Source: a virus | Direction: 5' to 3' (one strand) | IMG/VR virus record: IMGVR_UViG_3300025133_000321 | Coordinates: 1 to 36,784 of that record | DNA length: 36,784 bases | Part shown: in pieces, positions 16,095-36,623 of the stretch | Layout: every line of letters starts with the position of its first letter | How positions within the stretch are numbered: the stretch's first letter is position 1 | Translations under genes and position numbers: made by a program | The notes under the pieces: generated by a model | Told to the model about the DNA's origin: nothing | Database searches by the model: none | Seen by the model: only the letters and a program-made list of their open reading frames with translations

Positions 16095-18260
16095 TCAACC
16101 CCCCGGTGGTCCAAAATCCCACTCATAACAGATACAATCTGGGTCTGGAAATTCACAACACAACATACAACACCAACCTTCAGGACACGGAGGATCGCAA
16201 TTCTCGGTACATGATTCTGGTGGTTCAGCACAAGGATTCCATGTTGTGGTGGGTGGTTCGTCACATTCTTCACAATACGAATCTATACAACAAAGTGCCT
16301 CATCACAATCAATATCTTCTACACATTCTGGTTGCGGTGTTGTTGTGGTAGTGGTAGTGGTGGTAGTGGTGGTAGTAGTGGTGGTGGTTGCACAGTCCCC
16401 ACATTCTCCATCCTGACAACACGAATCTTCGCCTTCACAATCATCGTCTTCTCCACATTCTGGTGGTTCTGGGCAATCAACACATTCCCCGTTTTGACAA
16501 CATTGATCTCCACAATTTGAATCGTTTTCACATTCTGGTTGTTCATCACAAACACTACAATCCCTACCAGAAAACCAAAGTGCAGAATATGATCCACTTT
16601 CGCTTACGTCATCAGATGCAGAACAGCATTCAAAGTTGTATAGATCTCCTCCTTTGCAAGTGTAAGTTATCTTTCCTGTGCCTGGATTTCTTTCGCAACA
16701 CGCACCGCTCGGAAGAGGCTCGCATGAAACATCATTGCATGTTTTACAGCATCCTGATATTTCACCGGATGGATGAGTTCCATATGAACCCTTCCACCTT
16801 CCCTTGTCTTCAAAACACTGCCAAACATTTACCTCCGAACACGAACCATCCGGTAAACAACAAGCAGATGTTGGAATGCAAGAATTGTTTGTGTAATCGT
16901 CATCCATTGTGTCCCAAAATGAAGTACCGCAACCAGAAGTTGTAGGAATATAACCTTCTTCAGATAAGAAATCTTCGCACATAAATTTCCAAAAATCGTT
17001 ATTGCAGGCCCTTAGTTTTAATTCTTCTCCAGATAAATCTGTTAGTTGGGCTTCCTCTTCCCACCACCAAATGGGAGTTTGTGATGCACTAATTCCCCAA
17101 ACATCTGAATCAAAAACAACAACTACAGCACCAGCACCATTTTTCTTGTAGACCACCGTACATGTTTTTTCTTCTGAGTTGCAATGTCCAACTAAAGGTT
17201 TACCACCATGTTCATTTATGGGAATTAACCCGGAACTATATGAACAATGAAAAGGTAAAGGTTTATTATCTCCATCGTCTTCCATCTTGAACGGAGTTTT
17301 TGTTTTCTGACAACAACTCTGAGAAATGAAAAAATCATTTTCACTTTCAAATTGATTAATAAAAGGTTCGTCTGAAATTTCTACCCATTCTGTGGGTTCC
17401 TCTTCATCATCGTTTCTTGCAGCGTAATAGGCAAACTCTAAAAGAAGTTGAGTGATTTGACCACCAGATAAAGATATGGAAGATTCATAAAATGAATTTT
17501 CTGGACAATCAGGACCGGAGCAATCTCTTAATTGATACCAACCACTTGGTCTGAAAAACCCAACACGATTTATACATGATCCAAATACACTATCCTTCGC
17601 TTCGCCCATTATTACCAATTTTCCACCAGATTTAACCCAATTGCGGATCCATTCCCAATTTTGGTTATTCTCACCACCCTCTGGTGGAACTGTAACTTTA
17701 TCTGCTCCACACACAGGCATTTCATCACCGAAATTTGAAACACCATAATCTCTACCAACCGCACCAACAAATGCAAGAGAATGACATCCTATATTTTCTT
17801 CTGTGCAATGCATAGAACAGTCACCTTTAGGAACTAAAGGACTTTCCCAATTATCAATCCAATCTTTAAATACTTGGGGCGACCAAGGAAGAAAACCTTG
17901 AGGAGAAGAATATTGGTAATACCAAGGTTTTGGTATTTTGTTTCCCATTGGCCAATGTGGCCAACAATAATCTTGATCACATTCGCCAGGATATGAATAT
18001 TCAGTAGGGTTAGTTTCCCAGCAAATATTACCAGTGAATAAATTTTCTGGATGTTTTCCTGTTATCCAATCACCACCGGGATCAGAACCTTGTTCTTTTT
18101 GTGGGGAGTTTGGAGCAGGAATATCAGATCCTATTGGTGAGTATGAAGTTTCCCCCAACGCACAAATTGGACACGAACCAGAAGTGGAGGGATAACGAAA
18201 TTCATCCCCCGAACAAGGTCTATCACCACACCCACAACAACATATTCTATGTGTATTCAT
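16095..18260 (-). CDS. Cysteine-rich virion protein with amidotransferase-like segment and poly-Thr linker
   Basis: The protein has 721 residues. Residues about 150-300 contain HSLAFVGAVGRDYG, then NWEWIRNWVKSGGKLVIMGE, resembling the 'W-x-x-I-R-x-x-V-x-SGG-x-L-V' step of class-I glutamine-amidotransferase-like Rossmann domains; the catalytic set is not evident. From about residue 460 the protein is a string of disulfide-style units (SACCLPDGSC, GACCERNPGTGK, CGDQCCQNGECVDC, GEDSCCQDGECGDC), interrupted by 17 consecutive Thr at residues 625-641. The start is six bases after the upstream stop with no clear ribosome site, so it is probably translationally coupled to the gp27-like gene. The function is unknown; it is probably displayed on the baseplate hub or tail tip. 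Confidence 0.72.
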   Translation of the reverse strand: MNTHRICCCGCGDRPCSGDEFRYPSTSGSCPICALGETSYSPIGSDIPAPNSPQKEQGSDPGGDWITGKHPENLFTGNICWETNPTEYSYPGECDQDYCWPHWPMGNKIPKPWYYQYSSPQGFLPWSPQVFKDWIDNWESPLVPKGDCSMHCTEENIGCHSLAFVGAVGRDYGVSNFGDEMPVCGADKVTVPPEGGENNQNWEWIRNWVKSGGKLVIMGEAKDSVFGSCINRVGFFRPSGWYQLRDCSGPDCPENSFYESSISLSGGQITQLLLEFAYYAARNDDEEEPTEWVEISDEPFINQFESENDFFISQSCCQKTKTPFKMEDDGDNKPLPFHCSYSSGLIPINEHGGKPLVGHCNSEEKTCTVVYKKNGAGAVVVVFDSDVWGISASQTPIWWWEEEAQLTDLSGEELKLRACNNDFWKFMCEDFLSEEGYIPTTSGCGTSFWDTMDDDYTNNSCIPTSACCLPDGSCSEVNVWQCFEDKGRWKGSYGTHPSGEISGCCKTCNDVSCEPLPSGACCERNPGTGKITYTCKGGDLYNFECCSASDDVSESGSYSALWFSGRDCSVCDEQPECENDSNCGDQCCQNGECVDCPEPPECGEDDDCEGEDSCCQDGECGDCATTTTTTTTTTTTTTTTTPQPECVEDIDCDEALCCIDSYCEECDEPPTTTWNPCAEPPESCTENCDPPCPEGWCCMLCCEFPDPDCICYEWDFGPPGG
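16338..16388 (-). repeat. Trinucleotide (ACN) tract encoding 17 threonines
   Basis: Seventeen successive ACC/ACT/ACA codons lie between two cysteine units of the 721-residue protein. The mix of third bases shows it is kept as a protein linker and not only as a simple DNA repeat. It could still change length by slippage. Confidence 0.9.
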
Positions 18261-23402: not shown

Positions 23403-24122
23403 ATGAGTTCATTATCAAATATATTACTGTCTAAAACACCAAAATACTTAATAGAAATTCCATCTAACAAGAAAAAGACTTCATATAGACCTTTTCTTGT
23501 AAAGGAAGAAAAAATATTACTACTTGCTCAAAAATCTGAAGATCATTCAGAAATATTGTTAGCAATAAAGGACATCATAGAATCTTGTGTGGATGATATT
23601 GGAGATGTTTCTGATATTCCAATATTTGATATTGAATATATTTTCATAAATCTTCGTGCAAAATCAGTTGGTGAAATTGTAGAGCCTGTTATTGTTTGTC
23701 CAAAAACTAACGAAAAAGTGACGCTTGAAATAAATCTAATGGACATAAACATAAAAGAAAACAAAAATCATAAAAATAAAATTAAAATAGATGAAAATGT
23801 TATATTAGAAATGGGTTATCCATCAATCAACATTTTACAGAAAACAGAATCTGATATTGATTACACAGATCCTGACTCTTTTTATAACTTAATCTCAATG
23901 TGTATTCAAAAAGTACACACAACCGAAGAAACAATAGAAACTTCTTTGTTGCCCCAGCAAGAAGTAAAAGATTTCATAGACAACATGAACAGGGATCAAT
24001 TTGAAAAGGTTTTAGATTTTTTCTTAACATCTCCAAGATTAGAACACGAAATAGAATATACCACTTCTGATGGGGTAAAGAGAAAGGTGGTGTTGAGTGG
24101 GTTGTCAGATTTTTTCGGATAG
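23403..24122 (+). CDS. 26: Baseplate hub assembly protein gp26-like; 0-frame product of a probable -1 frameshift gene
   Basis: The protein has 239 residues (T4 gp26 has 208). The N-terminal region has PKYLIEIPSNKKKTSYRPFL, then VKEEKILLLAQKSED, then DIEYIFINLRAKSVGEIVEP, the gp26 family signature. In T4, gp26 is required to assemble the central hub but is not in the finished particle, which would fit a chaperone. The gene ends DFFG and stop, encoded by GAT TTT TTC GGA TAG. This contains a -1 slippery heptamer followed by a hairpin, so a fraction of ribosomes may continue into the frame described next. Confidence 0.9.
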   Translation: MSSLSNILLSKTPKYLIEIPSNKKKTSYRPFLVKEEKILLLAQKSEDHSEILLAIKDIIESCVDDIGDVSDIPIFDIEYIFINLRAKSVGEIVEPVIVCPKTNEKVTLEINLMDINIKENKNHKNKIKIDENVILEMGYPSINILQKTESDIDYTDPDSFYNLISMCIQKVHTTEETIETSLLPQQEVKDFIDNMNRDQFEKVLDFFLTSPRLEHEIEYTTSDGVKRKVVLSGLSDFFG

Positions 24123-24141
24123 GGCTCACCCACCTGAGCCT
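24110..24141 (+). promoter_or_regulatory. Probable programmed -1 ribosomal frameshift site in gp26
   Basis: Heptamer T TTT TTC at 24110-24116, positioned in the gp26 frame as X XXY YYZ, allows tRNA-Phe in both P and A sites to re-pair one base back. Five bases (GGATA) separate it from a hairpin: GGCTCA at 24123-24128, loop CCCACC, TGAGCC at 24135-24140, plus a G-U pair outside. The stem is perfect and its distance is within the usual range for stimulatory structures. The zero-frame stop (24120-24122) lies inside the spacer. The loop bases CCCAC could also pair with GTGGG at 24097-24101. Confidence 0.75.
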
Positions 24142-24325
24142 AGAGAATTATTATAGATTGAACTTTCAACTAGTCCAACACCACAAATATAGTTTGTGTG
24201 AATTAGAAAATATGATTCCTTGGGAAAGAGATATCTATTTGGCTCAACTGATCGAATATATAGAGACAGAGAACGAAAAAATAAGGCTACAAGAAATAGA
24301 ACAAAGAAAATCTAATAGAAGTTGA
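24116..24325 (+). CDS. -1 frame extension of gp26 (gp26-fs tail, 69 residues)
   Basis: After a -1 slip the ribosome would read CGG ATA GGG and on to TGA at 24323-24325, adding 69 residues to 238 of gp26, a 307-residue fusion. The frame is open back to 24071 but has no ATG, GTG or TTG before its conserved part, so independent initiation is unlikely. The extension reads ...HLSLENYYRLNFQLVQ, then HHKYSLCELENMIPWERDIY, then a charged helix ending in KSNRS. The part 'QHHKYSL-x-EL-E-x-MIPWERDIY' is compact, protein-like and, from memory, recurs as a small ORF beside gp26 in other T4-like aquatic phages. A role like gpGT or gpE' (binding the tape measure) is inferred. Confidence 0.72.
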   Translation, partial: RIGLTHLSLENYYRLNFQLVQHHKYSLCELENMIPWERDIYLAQLIEYIETENEKIRLQEIEQRKSNRS

Positions 24326-24334
24326 TGGAGCATA

Positions 24335-25513
24335 ATGAAACAAAAAATATCTTTAAAAAATAATATGCTATCGTTTTTTGATTCCAGAAAAAACGATAGC
24401 GAATACAGCAACCAAGAAATAGAACCAACTAAACGAGAAAGATCATTTCTTGATTATTATTCTTCAAATGTTTTTATCCAAGAACCAACAAATAAAAATA
24501 TCCCTGTTGTTGAAAAACCCACCGATAATAAAAACAATGATTTCATTTTCAGGAAAAAACATAAAACGAAAGAAAACCGCGAAGAGAAAAAACAAGATTC
24601 AAAAAGCAAAAATGCATTAGATAATAATATTCTACATTTAGAAAATATAGAAAATAAACTTAAATCTTTGACAGAGAATAATTTCAAAACCATAAACAAC
24701 ATTCACAACAAAACAGATCATATTCATAATAAAAATAATAACACACACAAATCATATGAAGAAAAGATTGATAACACAATCAATAACATATTTAAAAAAA
24801 ATATAGATTCACCAACGCTTATAACAAACAACAACGAATCCGTTATGAATTCTATAAATTCTATGAAAAACAACACAACAAAATACGTCAATGATTATGT
24901 TGATAACAATGTAGATCAGGCACCACCAAAAGATGAGAAACACACAGAATCTATTAAGATGATAGCAAAGGTTATTCGGGTAAAGGGAGATAATGTTCCC
25001 AAGATAATATCTCCAAAATACAACGTTCAAAACAACCGAATGAAAGAATACCACACAAATGATATTGGCACCACCCTCATTTCCAACATTGAAAAAATAG
25101 TACCGAAAAATGAAATAATAGAAATACCCACATTTGCTGAAGGTGGAGTGGTAACTAAACCAACCATTGCTCAGATAGGTGACGCCCCAGGCGGCGATCA
25201 AACAGAAGTTGTAATGAGTCCTAGAAAAATACCAGAGGTATTAGCGAAAGCAAATGTTATTGAAAAAACAAATAAATTAACTATCTCAGAACAAGCAAAA
25301 AAATCAATGGGCGAAAACTCCGAATTAAAAATAAACCAACAGCAGGCTAACCCATCTACTAACCAAGCATCCCAACCAGCATTAATAAATGCCCCCAAAA
25401 TAATAAACAGTTCTGGAAACAATAGTGGTGGAGTTCAGACTCAACCATCAAAAAGTGGTGCTTACTTAAATTCTTCGTCTAGATTGCCTAGATGGAGAAC
25501 ACAAATAGGATGA
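24335..25513 (+). CDS. Tape-measure-like tail protein (short)
   Basis: The protein has 392 residues with GGAG seven bases before the ATG. It is very rich in Lys and Asn in its first 230 residues and reads like extended coil. Residues about 265-300 have IPTFAEGGVVTKPTIAQIG, then GGDQTEVVMSP. That 'FAEGG-x-V-T-x-PT-x-A-x-IG' stretch is typical of the Gly-rich C-terminal part of tail tape measure proteins. It ends in a Gln/Asn/Ser-rich tail. Position after tube and gp26 supports a tape measure or gp29-like role, though it is shorter than T4 gp29 (590). If roughly 0.15 nm per residue applied, the tail would be on the order of 60 nm; this is only an estimate. Confidence 0.65.
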   Translation: MKQKISLKNNMLSFFDSRKNDSEYSNQEIEPTKRERSFLDYYSSNVFIQEPTNKNIPVVEKPTDNKNNDFIFRKKHKTKENREEKKQDSKSKNALDNNILHLENIENKLKSLTENNFKTINNIHNKTDHIHNKNNNTHKSYEEKIDNTINNIFKKNIDSPTLITNNNESVMNSINSMKNNTTKYVNDYVDNNVDQAPPKDEKHTESIKMIAKVIRVKGDNVPKIISPKYNVQNNRMKEYHTNDIGTTLISNIEKIVPKNEIIEIPTFAEGGVVTKPTIAQIGDAPGGDQTEVVMSPRKIPEVLAKANVIEKTNKLTISEQAKKSMGENSELKINQQQANPSTNQASQPALINAPKIINSSGNNSGGVQTQPSKSGAYLNSSSRLPRWRTQIG

Positions 25514-30743: not shown

Positions 30744-32657
30744 ATGCCAACTCCACCCAAAAAAAGACACGGGAACATAAAAGTTCACAAACCCAAAATA
30801 AAAAACAATCGTAAATATAAGTTTGTTTCGGATGGTACTTGTGTAAATTGTAGGGATATTGATGAAATAAAAGAAGGCTTTACATCCAATATAACCCCCG
30901 ACAAAACCCCAAAAATAACTCCAACAATTGAGGATCCTAATGGACAATCATGGACAAGAGGGTGGTGGGGAGGGGACTACCCCGGCTGTTGTTGTCATTA
31001 TGTTGATGGTGAAAAAACATGTACAGACCAAATCTATGAAGATGATTGTTTAAATTCTGGTGACTATACAGATCCTGCGTGGTGGCTTGGGGGTTGTAAT
31101 TACAACAATGGTTGCGCACATTTTTGTGGGACTTATGATGATTGTGCGTTTGATAGATACCCCGCAGTTAAGAGAATATGGATGGATCCTGAAGTATGCG
31201 AAAAGAATCCAGAGTTGACATGTTGGAACAGTCCTGTTCTGGATAGACAACCATATGCATTAATGGATTTCGGTTTTCAAATTTTATTAGATGGATGGGA
31301 TCCTTGGGTTGGTAAGCCGGGTACTCCAATACCACCACCAACTGTTCCTTCTCAAAACGTACCCAAACCATATAAAGGTTGGAGAGGGCATTGGTATAAT
31401 GTTTTTGATATATGGAATCCAAATAATTGGTGTATGGGCACAGACATGTATCCATCATGCGGCGACACGGTATGCTCCAGCGCGGATTATCCGGCTAGTA
31501 ATTGTTGCGATAATGCTTACGACCCGGGACAAGATGCAATTCCATATTTCACAGTAGATTGGTTTCAAGAATATAATATCGTAATAAAACCAAGAAGATA
31601 TGATGTCAATGGGGAACCATGTGTAATAATACCACCCGAACCAGAATGCTATCTAAATGAGGATTGTCCAGAAGGATTTTGTTGTGAGGATGAAGTTTGC
31701 ATTGAAGGTGATGATGATGATTGCAACGATACTACCGGATCCCCCATAAGCACTTATGTTGGTGCTGATGAATATTGCAACGAACCAATAGAAGTAGATT
31801 TTAGACTACCGTGGTGTTCAGGCTCCCCCGGAATATGTTCGGATCATGATGTGGGATGTTATGATGTGCATGGTTGGATGGGAGCATATGATGTTTTTAT
31901 TGATAAACATTTCTTACCCGAAAGAGGGAATCCAGACAACAAACAACCACATTTTGGGTACGAAGCAGAACCACATCCGGGGTATCCCGGCGGCGCGCCA
32001 TGTACTCCACAAAGAACAATAAAACTCAGATGGGAAGCAGGTGATAATTCCCCAAGATATATCAAATTTAGATATAATTATGAGAGTAACTCGCTTAGAA
32101 ATATGGGAATGTCTCCAGGTCAAATTAAAGATCAATTCCTAAATAGAGTTATCTCACCCAATTCTTCCGTAGCGAAAGAAAACAGAATAGCAAACCTCAC
32201 TCGGGGAGCAACAGAAGAAAATAAATGGTTCTTTCCGTTTGGTCGTACTCGATCCTATGGCGCAACATATGGTGGTCTTGAATTTGCCATTGCAGTTCCT
32301 AATGATGCTTCATGGAACCATCACCGCGTAGCATGGTCTCAATATCAAGGACAACATCACGAATTCAACCCAGATAGATCCGGTGAAAGTGATAGAGGTT
32401 TATATTATTGGGGCAGCACCATAGGGAATATGGTGGGTATGCCGTTCCCCCCACACGCAAGAAGCCGGCATTTATATCCATTCTTAAAATCAATGGTAAA
32501 TTATCCTGATTATCCAGAAGAATACGAATCATGGCCAATAGAGATAGACAATTCAGTTACTAGACCTTGGGGGGATAATGTAAAGGAACAAAGTGAACAG
32601 TATTTCGGCTCTTTTGATTGGACAATACCCGGTAATAAGTTGCCCGAAAATTCATAA
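30744..32657 (+). CDS. Cys/Trp-rich virion protein, unknown family
   Basis: The protein has 637 residues, with ATAGGA before the ATG, six bases after the lysozyme-fusion stop. A basic start (PTPPKKRHGNIKVHKPKIKN) is followed by cysteine-rich segments (YPGCCCHYVDGEKTC, SNCCDNAYDPG, DCPEGFCCEDEVC) like those of the other cysteine-rich genes. The second half contains many Trp/Tyr/His residues (ASWNHHRVAWSQYQGQHHEF) and looks like a globular domain. No transmembrane segment or signal peptide is seen. It is probably a virion component like its neighbours, but I do not recognise it. Confidence 0.75.
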   Translation: MPTPPKKRHGNIKVHKPKIKNNRKYKFVSDGTCVNCRDIDEIKEGFTSNITPDKTPKITPTIEDPNGQSWTRGWWGGDYPGCCCHYVDGEKTCTDQIYEDDCLNSGDYTDPAWWLGGCNYNNGCAHFCGTYDDCAFDRYPAVKRIWMDPEVCEKNPELTCWNSPVLDRQPYALMDFGFQILLDGWDPWVGKPGTPIPPPTVPSQNVPKPYKGWRGHWYNVFDIWNPNNWCMGTDMYPSCGDTVCSSADYPASNCCDNAYDPGQDAIPYFTVDWFQEYNIVIKPRRYDVNGEPCVIIPPEPECYLNEDCPEGFCCEDEVCIEGDDDDCNDTTGSPISTYVGADEYCNEPIEVDFRLPWCSGSPGICSDHDVGCYDVHGWMGAYDVFIDKHFLPERGNPDNKQPHFGYEAEPHPGYPGGAPCTPQRTIKLRWEAGDNSPRYIKFRYNYESNSLRNMGMSPGQIKDQFLNRVISPNSSVAKENRIANLTRGATEENKWFFPFGRTRSYGATYGGLEFAIAVPNDASWNHHRVAWSQYQGQHHEFNPDRSGESDRGLYYWGSTIGNMVGMPFPPHARSRHLYPFLKSMVNYPDYPEEYESWPIEIDNSVTRPWGDNVKEQSEQYFGSFDWTIPGNKLPENS

Positions 32658-32731
32658 CACGCCTGGCAGGACTCGAACCTGCAACATTCGCCTTAGAAGG
32701 GCGATACTCTTTCCAGTTGAGTTACAGGCGC
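32658..32731 (-). tRNA. tRNA-Arg (UCU)
   Basis: Cloverleaf on the minus strand: acceptor GCGCCTG pairs with CAGGCGT. Anticodon loop CTTCTAA on stem TCGCC/GGCGA gives anticodon UCU (codon AGA). T arm GCAGG-TTCGAGT-CCTGC. CCA is not encoded. The 3' end abuts the stop of the convergent 637-residue gene. Confidence 0.95.
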
Positions 32732-32734
32732 AAA

Positions 32735-32808
32735 CGAGATGGACGGGACTCGAACCCGCAACCACCGGCTCGACAGGCCGGTATTCTGACCAATTGAACT
32801 ACCATCCC
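32735..32808 (-). tRNA. tRNA-Asp (GUC)
   Basis: Acceptor GGGATGG pairs with CCATCTC (one G-U). Anticodon loop CTGTCGA on stem CCGGC/GCCGG gives GUC. Discriminator G fits tRNA-Asp. T arm GCGGG-TTCGAGT-CCCGT. No CCA encoded. Three bases separate it from tRNA-Arg. Confidence 0.95.
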
Positions 32809-32810
32809 AA

Positions 32811-32894
32811 TACGAGTGATGGGACTCGAACCCATATGTCCAACCGGACAACGGATTTTAAGTCCGTCGCGTATGCCAATTCCGCCACACTCGC
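32811..32894 (-). tRNA. tRNA-Leu (UAA)
   Basis: Acceptor GCGAGTG pairs with CACTCGT (one G-U), discriminator A. Anticodon loop CTTAAAA on ACGGA/TCCGT gives UAA (codon UUA). A long variable arm (TGTCC...GGACA) is the class II hallmark of tRNA-Leu. First gene of the three-tRNA operon. Confidence 0.95.
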
Positions 32895-32911
32895 TTCGTT
32901 TCATATGTTAT

Positions 32912-32940
32912 ATTATACCAAATGATGAGTGGGTTGTCAA
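32912..32940 (-). promoter_or_regulatory. Consensus sigma70 promoter of the tRNA operon
   Basis: Minus strand: TTGACA at 32940-32935, 17-base spacer, TATAAT at 32917-32912. All positions match consensus. The TGA of the -35 box is also the stop codon of the upstream 42-residue gene (32937-32939). Confidence 0.88.
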
Positions 32941-36550: not shown

Positions 36551-36623
36551 TGGGTCAGGTGAGATTTGAACTCACGACTTCCGGTTTAAAAGACCGATAC
36601 TCTACCAACTGAGTTACTGACCC
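36551..36623 (-). tRNA. tRNA-Lys (UUU)
   Basis: Acceptor GGGTCAG pairs perfectly with CTGACCC, discriminator A. Anticodon loop CTTTTAA on stem TCGGT/ACCGG (one G-U type pair) gives UUU (codon AAA). T arm GTGAG-TTCAAAT-CTCAC. No CCA encoded. Isolated from the other three tRNAs. Confidence 0.95.

Follow-up and report, generated by a model that had tools for sequence, protein, structure and literature searches.

A probable −1 programmed frameshift at the end of gp26 in a T4-like phage, and the gp51-type domain that it would add

The gp26 locus and its candidate slip site

At the 3' end of the gp26 gene of the T4-like virus studied here, a protein-like stretch continues in the −1 frame, and this raises the question of whether the gene has one product or two. 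The window (the whole stretch of DNA that was analysed, a 36.8-kb viral contig of 36,784 nucleotides) carried a T4-like structural gene set, and its ORF at 23403-24122 (239 aa) was a gp26 homologue: PF12322 with an E-value of 7e-58, and PHROG 150 ('baseplate hub') with 5e-60. A preliminary description, made from the letters of this stretch, had read the gene as a −1 programmed frameshift gene, and this reading was supported across ~280 relatives. We are highly confident that gp26 is such a gene, making a short tail assembly chaperone (TAC-N) and a longer fusion protein (gp26-fs, or TAC-NC). The features concerned were the following.

23403-24122, + strand: gp26, short form of the tail assembly chaperone (TAC-N), 239 aa, stop codon TAG at 24120-24122
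24095-24101, + strand: GAGTGGG, a weak Shine-Dalgarno (SD)-like purine stretch shortly before the heptamer, which may act as a 5' stimulator
24110-24116, + strand: T TTT TTC, the slippery heptamer, phased as X XXY YYZ, as tandem −1 slippage needs
24117-24121, + strand: 5-nt spacer between heptamer and hairpin, from sequence and fold
24122-24141, + strand: hairpin, putative 3' stimulator, 7 pairs including one G-U, 6-nt loop
24116-24325, + strand: −1 frame tail, 69 codons and stop, predicted to give the long form (TAC-NC, 307 aa) its gp51-type C-terminal domain
24335-25513, + strand: candidate tape-measure-type protein, 392 aa, immediately following the chaperone gene, with the motif FAEGGVVTKPTIAQIGD

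The 3' end of gp26 read GAT TTT TTC GGA TAG. The −1 frame was open from 24071 to 24322 with a stop codon at 24323-24325, and a −1 shift at the heptamer would give gp26-fs of 307 residues (238 + 69), the short and long forms sharing their N-terminal part at the sequence level. The sole −1-frame start codon before the conserved core in the window was TTG at 24158, and this codon lay inside the conserved segment. The preliminary description was thus accurate in the phase of the heptamer, the five-base spacer, the extent of the open frame from 24071, the two product lengths (239 and 307 residues) and the lack of a usable start codon before the protein-like part. It had also proposed a six-base-pair hairpin with an additional G-U: this stem is present (24122-24128 paired with 24135-24141; six Watson-Crick pairs and one G-U), but is weak, with −10.7 kcal/mol and a z-score of −1.46, and was not significant alone, since 13/200 shuffled sequences were equally stable.

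The heptamer was by itself unremarkable as well: 30 copies of T TTT TTC were found in the window, versus ~20 expected. A verdict from the heptamer or the hairpin alone was therefore rejected, neither being significant in the window. The window alone does not exceed chance in these two features and the conservation across relatives does, so that the relatives decide the question.

A second in-phase T TTT TTC was observed within gp26 at 24017-24023, where a shift leads into the −1-frame stop codon at 24068-24070. Of the relatives, 55/191 had in-phase heptamers ahead of the main site, consistent with chance.

Conservation of the slip site and of the −1 frame

Viral contigs and phage records yielded 296 gp26 loci. 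In 281 of them, a homologue of the 69-residue tail could be detected downstream of gp26, and it was in the −1 frame in 280 of the 281, so that the conserved-looking tail of the preliminary description proved to be conserved indeed; the single exception (L084, scored in frame 0) has a gp26 reading frame that stops early and was taken as a broken sequence. The loci with no detected tail were mostly cut by the contig end, and a few were too divergent. An in-phase T TTT TTN was located 0-24 nt before the gp26 stop codon in 278/279 loci and, after removal of near-duplicates, in 191/192 non-redundant loci; relative L119 was without the heptamer. The codon preceding the heptamer, which may be for Ser, Asp, Asn, Ala, Gly, His or Thr, ended in T in 191/191 loci, compared with ~110/191 expected from the synonymous usage of each gene itself, a statistic that ignores kinship. 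In the Ackermannviridae phage PhaxI (L037, 1501-2400) and in Vibrio phage K474 (L043, 1501-2350), a −1-frame tail followed gp26 without a canonical heptamer, and another site or mechanism may be in use.

These counts bear directly on the explanation that the heptamer and the open frame are coincidental, for which the abundance of T TTT TTC in an AT-rich window and the lack of significance of the hairpin alone would speak. Conservation in 191/192 independent loci, together with the homology of the tail, refutes it, and its probability is negligible.

The −1 frame itself carried the marks of a coding sequence. Pairwise pN/pS values in this frame were 0.37 (codons 0-7) and 0.22 (codons 8-20), versus 1.1-3.6 in the other two phases; the coding pattern of codon-position entropy (position 2 < 1 < 3) began at the first codon past the heptamer; and R-I-A-L-x-H was conserved ahead of any start codon. 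Between the window and a 99.6%-identical relative (L002), the tail differed by an in-frame insertion of 3 nt and by four substitutions, three at third and one at second codon positions of the −1 frame. These patterns show purifying selection on the −1 frame from the first codon past the slip site. An alignment of related gp26 loci had been proposed in the preliminary description as a check on its reading, and in ours both the heptamer and the −1 frame, with the low ratios given above, were conserved.

If the −1-frame ORF were instead a small gene in its own right (gp51), with a start codon of its own, no fusion would be made. This is how the tail is entered, as a separate CDS, in the cyanophage, Pelagibacter phage and rhizobial phage records inspected, and ATG is indeed present shortly after the slip site in some relatives (at codon 3 in 48/191). 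However, no conserved start codon or ribosome site was found: ATG, GTG and TTG were absent before the conserved Leu in 93/191 loci, a candidate start codon with an SD-like 4-mer, which the preliminary description had regarded as evidence against its reading, occurred in only 11/191, and the window has only the TTG inside the conserved segment. A usable start codon for the −1 frame is thus usually absent. Furthermore, the onset of conservation at the first codon past the heptamer (pN/pS of 0.37 in codons 0-7), the conservation of the heptamer and the in-frame fusion seen in T4 gp51 (see below) all oppose an own-start gene, which we consider very unlikely.

An equally small probability was assigned to slippage of RNA polymerase on the T run, in which mixed mRNAs would encode the fusion. 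The site is poly-T, and a run of 8 T was found in 21/191 loci; the run was, however, exactly 6 T in 159/191. A run of 6 T is short for transcriptional slippage. The T TTT TTN phase, that of tandem tRNA slippage, was kept in all 191 loci, and the RNA on the 3' side was more stable than expected, both of which argue against a transcriptional origin.

This excess of stability was seen in the 45 nt after the heptamer of the relatives, with a mean z-score of −1.43 against dinucleotide shuffles and 36% of the values below −2, versus mean z-scores of −0.33 to 0.08 in four control windows from the same loci. RNAalifold gave no consensus structure common to all relatives, while two stem registers recurred in subgroups of them with a few compensatory changes; a simple count of stems did not separate the slip site from the control windows. 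AGGG or GAGG was present 8-11 nt upstream of the heptamer in relatives, with only a mild excess over synonymous shuffles, and an SD-like 5' stimulator was not accepted on this basis because a Glu-Gly-Leu protein motif could account for these letters. Frameshift stimulators are therefore likely to be present but unproven, since no common structure was found, the stem count was uninformative and the SD-like excess was mild. The comparative evidence for a frameshift in gp26, drawn from the sequences of the relatives, is decisive.

The −1 tail, T4 gp51 and the gene that follows

The −1 tail matched PHROG 634 ('baseplate hub assembly catalyst') with an E-value of 2.8e-24. Both T4 gp26 and T4 gp51 belong to PF12322. 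An additional C-terminal segment makes gp51 the longer of the two, and this segment could be aligned with the −1 tail, starting at the slip site (hhalign against the T4 gp51 C-terminus: probability 90, E-value 1.5e-6). The tail is the C-terminal domain of T4 gp51 and no new domain. T4 has the two genes in divergent orientation (26, minus strand; 51, plus strand), and there is no frameshift: T4 gp51 is the in-frame long form, and the short/long pair is made from two genes. In the present phage and most of the relatives examined, both forms are predicted to come from one gene by frameshifting. The remark in the preliminary description that T4 gp26 is not known as a frameshift gene holds, because T4 encodes its short (gp26) and long (gp51) forms as two genes.

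Two further matches of the tail were set aside: helices of HIV gp41, which were weak (best E-value 0.013) and taken as coincidence, and Stealth_CR2 in Pfam, which was below the cut-off.

T4 gp26 and gp51 have been listed as hub assembly chaperones (PMC3004832). A search of the PDB with the gp26 sequence gave no match. An AlphaFold (AF2) model of gp26 had a pLDDT of 94, and its best structural matches were the HK97 tail assembly chaperone (TAC) 2ob9 (Z 7.8) and 3fgx (Z 7.5), the next being 3.0 and the matches covering residues 1-99 only; a Z of 7.8 against 2ob9 is within the range that a common fold can give, and the Foldseek E-value was not significant. The model suggests a chaperone-like fold of the N-terminal domain, with HK97 TAC as its best match. 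Taken together, the homology of the tail with gp51, the shared PF12322 family and the HK97-TAC-like fold indicate a tail-assembly-chaperone frameshift of the G/GT type.

The ORF that directly follows the chaperone gene carries what we read as a tape-measure-like motif, FAEGGVV...IGD, and its best tape-measure match in PHROG reached an E-value of only 1.6; a candidate tape measure gene holds the same position in some relatives, that of cyanophage S-SM2 giving weak PHROG tape-measure matches. The ORF (392 aa) is much shorter than this S-SM2 gene (766 aa), and it is possible that it is a short or split tape measure gene. By analogy, the chaperone gene and the candidate tape measure gene would form the G-GT-H arrangement of lambda. 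About 30 nt into the same ORF, a perfect 13-bp inverted repeat (gctatcgtttttt/aaaaaacgatagc; 24367-24379 and 24388-24400, with an 8-nt loop) was observed; its RNA fold had −16.9 kcal/mol and a z-score of −7.34, and the repeat was identical in the near-identical relative L002.

Elsewhere in the window, three tRNA genes for Arg, Asp and Leu (32657-32894, − strand) lie opposite an ORF of 110 aa (32593-32925, + strand), which is antisense to them and an artefact of annotation; a fourth, for Lys, is located at 36551-36623. The 721-aa protein encoded at 16095-18260 (− strand) is cysteine-rich, contains an extended run of Thr (TTTTTTTTTTTTTTTTT residues), and is one of several large Cys-rich ORFs in the contig.

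Proposed mechanism and comparison with known systems

In the mechanism that we propose, most ribosomes would read gp26 to its TAG stop codon and release the short chaperone TAC-N, and on T TTT TTC a fraction would slip by one base toward the 5' side and go on in the −1 frame to produce gp26-fs (TAC-NC) with the gp51-type C-terminal domain, the slip being probably aided by the 3' hairpin and perhaps by the weak SD-like stretch upstream. Following the analogy of lambda G/GT, the tape measure protein would be coated by many copies of the short form and few of the long one, whose C-terminal domain would bring in subunits of the tail tube or hub; both forms would be gone by the time the virion is finished. 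We infer the slipping itself, its efficiency, the binding partners and the role, the last three by this same analogy.

Public records give the tail a gene entry of its own, under the name 'gp51', 'baseplate hub assembly catalyst' or 'hypothetical'. The entry of gp51 as a gene by itself is a systematic misannotation in the genomes of cyanophages and related phages. It is fairly likely, in our estimation, that frameshifting is ancestral and nearly universal for gp51-type proteins, in ocean T4-like phages and several other lineages, and that the two-gene split of T4 is derived, having arisen by duplication of gp26 and in-frame fusion of the tail. If this is true, the annotated cyanophage 'gene 51' does not exist as a separate gene.

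The frameshift of the G/G-T tail assembly chaperones of phage lambda (Levin 1993; Xu 2004, 2013, 2014, as cited in PMC5009743) is described in that review as a widely conserved feature of phages with long tails, with T4 as the exception. T4 has long been listed as an exception to this rule; its gp51 is explained here as the in-frame long form, and most of the relatives examined follow the rule. The gp26 locus resembles lambda G/GT in that a short protein would be accompanied by a longer −1 product, the shift site is just before the stop codon of the short form, the gene directly precedes a candidate tape measure gene, and the N-terminal fold appears to be like that of HK97 gp13; it differs from lambda in the heptamer (T TTT TTC), the family (PF12322) and the contractile tail. 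With T4 gp26/gp51 it shares PF12322 and the homology of the gp51 C-terminus with the −1 tail, whereas T4 uses two divergent genes for the short and long forms, with no frameshift.

The tail assembly chaperones of T4-like phages were identified by Vladimirov, Gautam and Davidson (2022), as cited in PMC10885494 and PMC12846349. According to the summary in PMC10885494, the short form and a long fusion are encoded by separate genes in some T4-like phages, and PMC12846349 refers to poly-T frameshift signals in T4-like TAC genes, citing the same work. PMC12846349 also describes a TAC frameshift in Vandenendeviridae/Andersonviridae (phage Adele), with a conserved poly-T site, GTTTTT, at the 3' end of TAC-N. 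The gp26 locus is like that of Adele, by description only, in the poly-T at the 3' end of TAC-N, the −1 frame that is open throughout and the downstream ORF misannotated as a separate gene, and is unlike it in the phage families and the slippery sequence. A literature search for frameshifting in cyanophages found no paper on the cyanophage gp26/gp51 locus.

Since the chaperone genes of T4-like phages were identified in 2022, the gp26 frameshift is no new kind of element: it is of the lambda G/GT type, and this type has already been discussed for T4-like phages. The comparative data set behind it is unusually broad, and the T TTT TTC heptamer provides a ready conserved test site.
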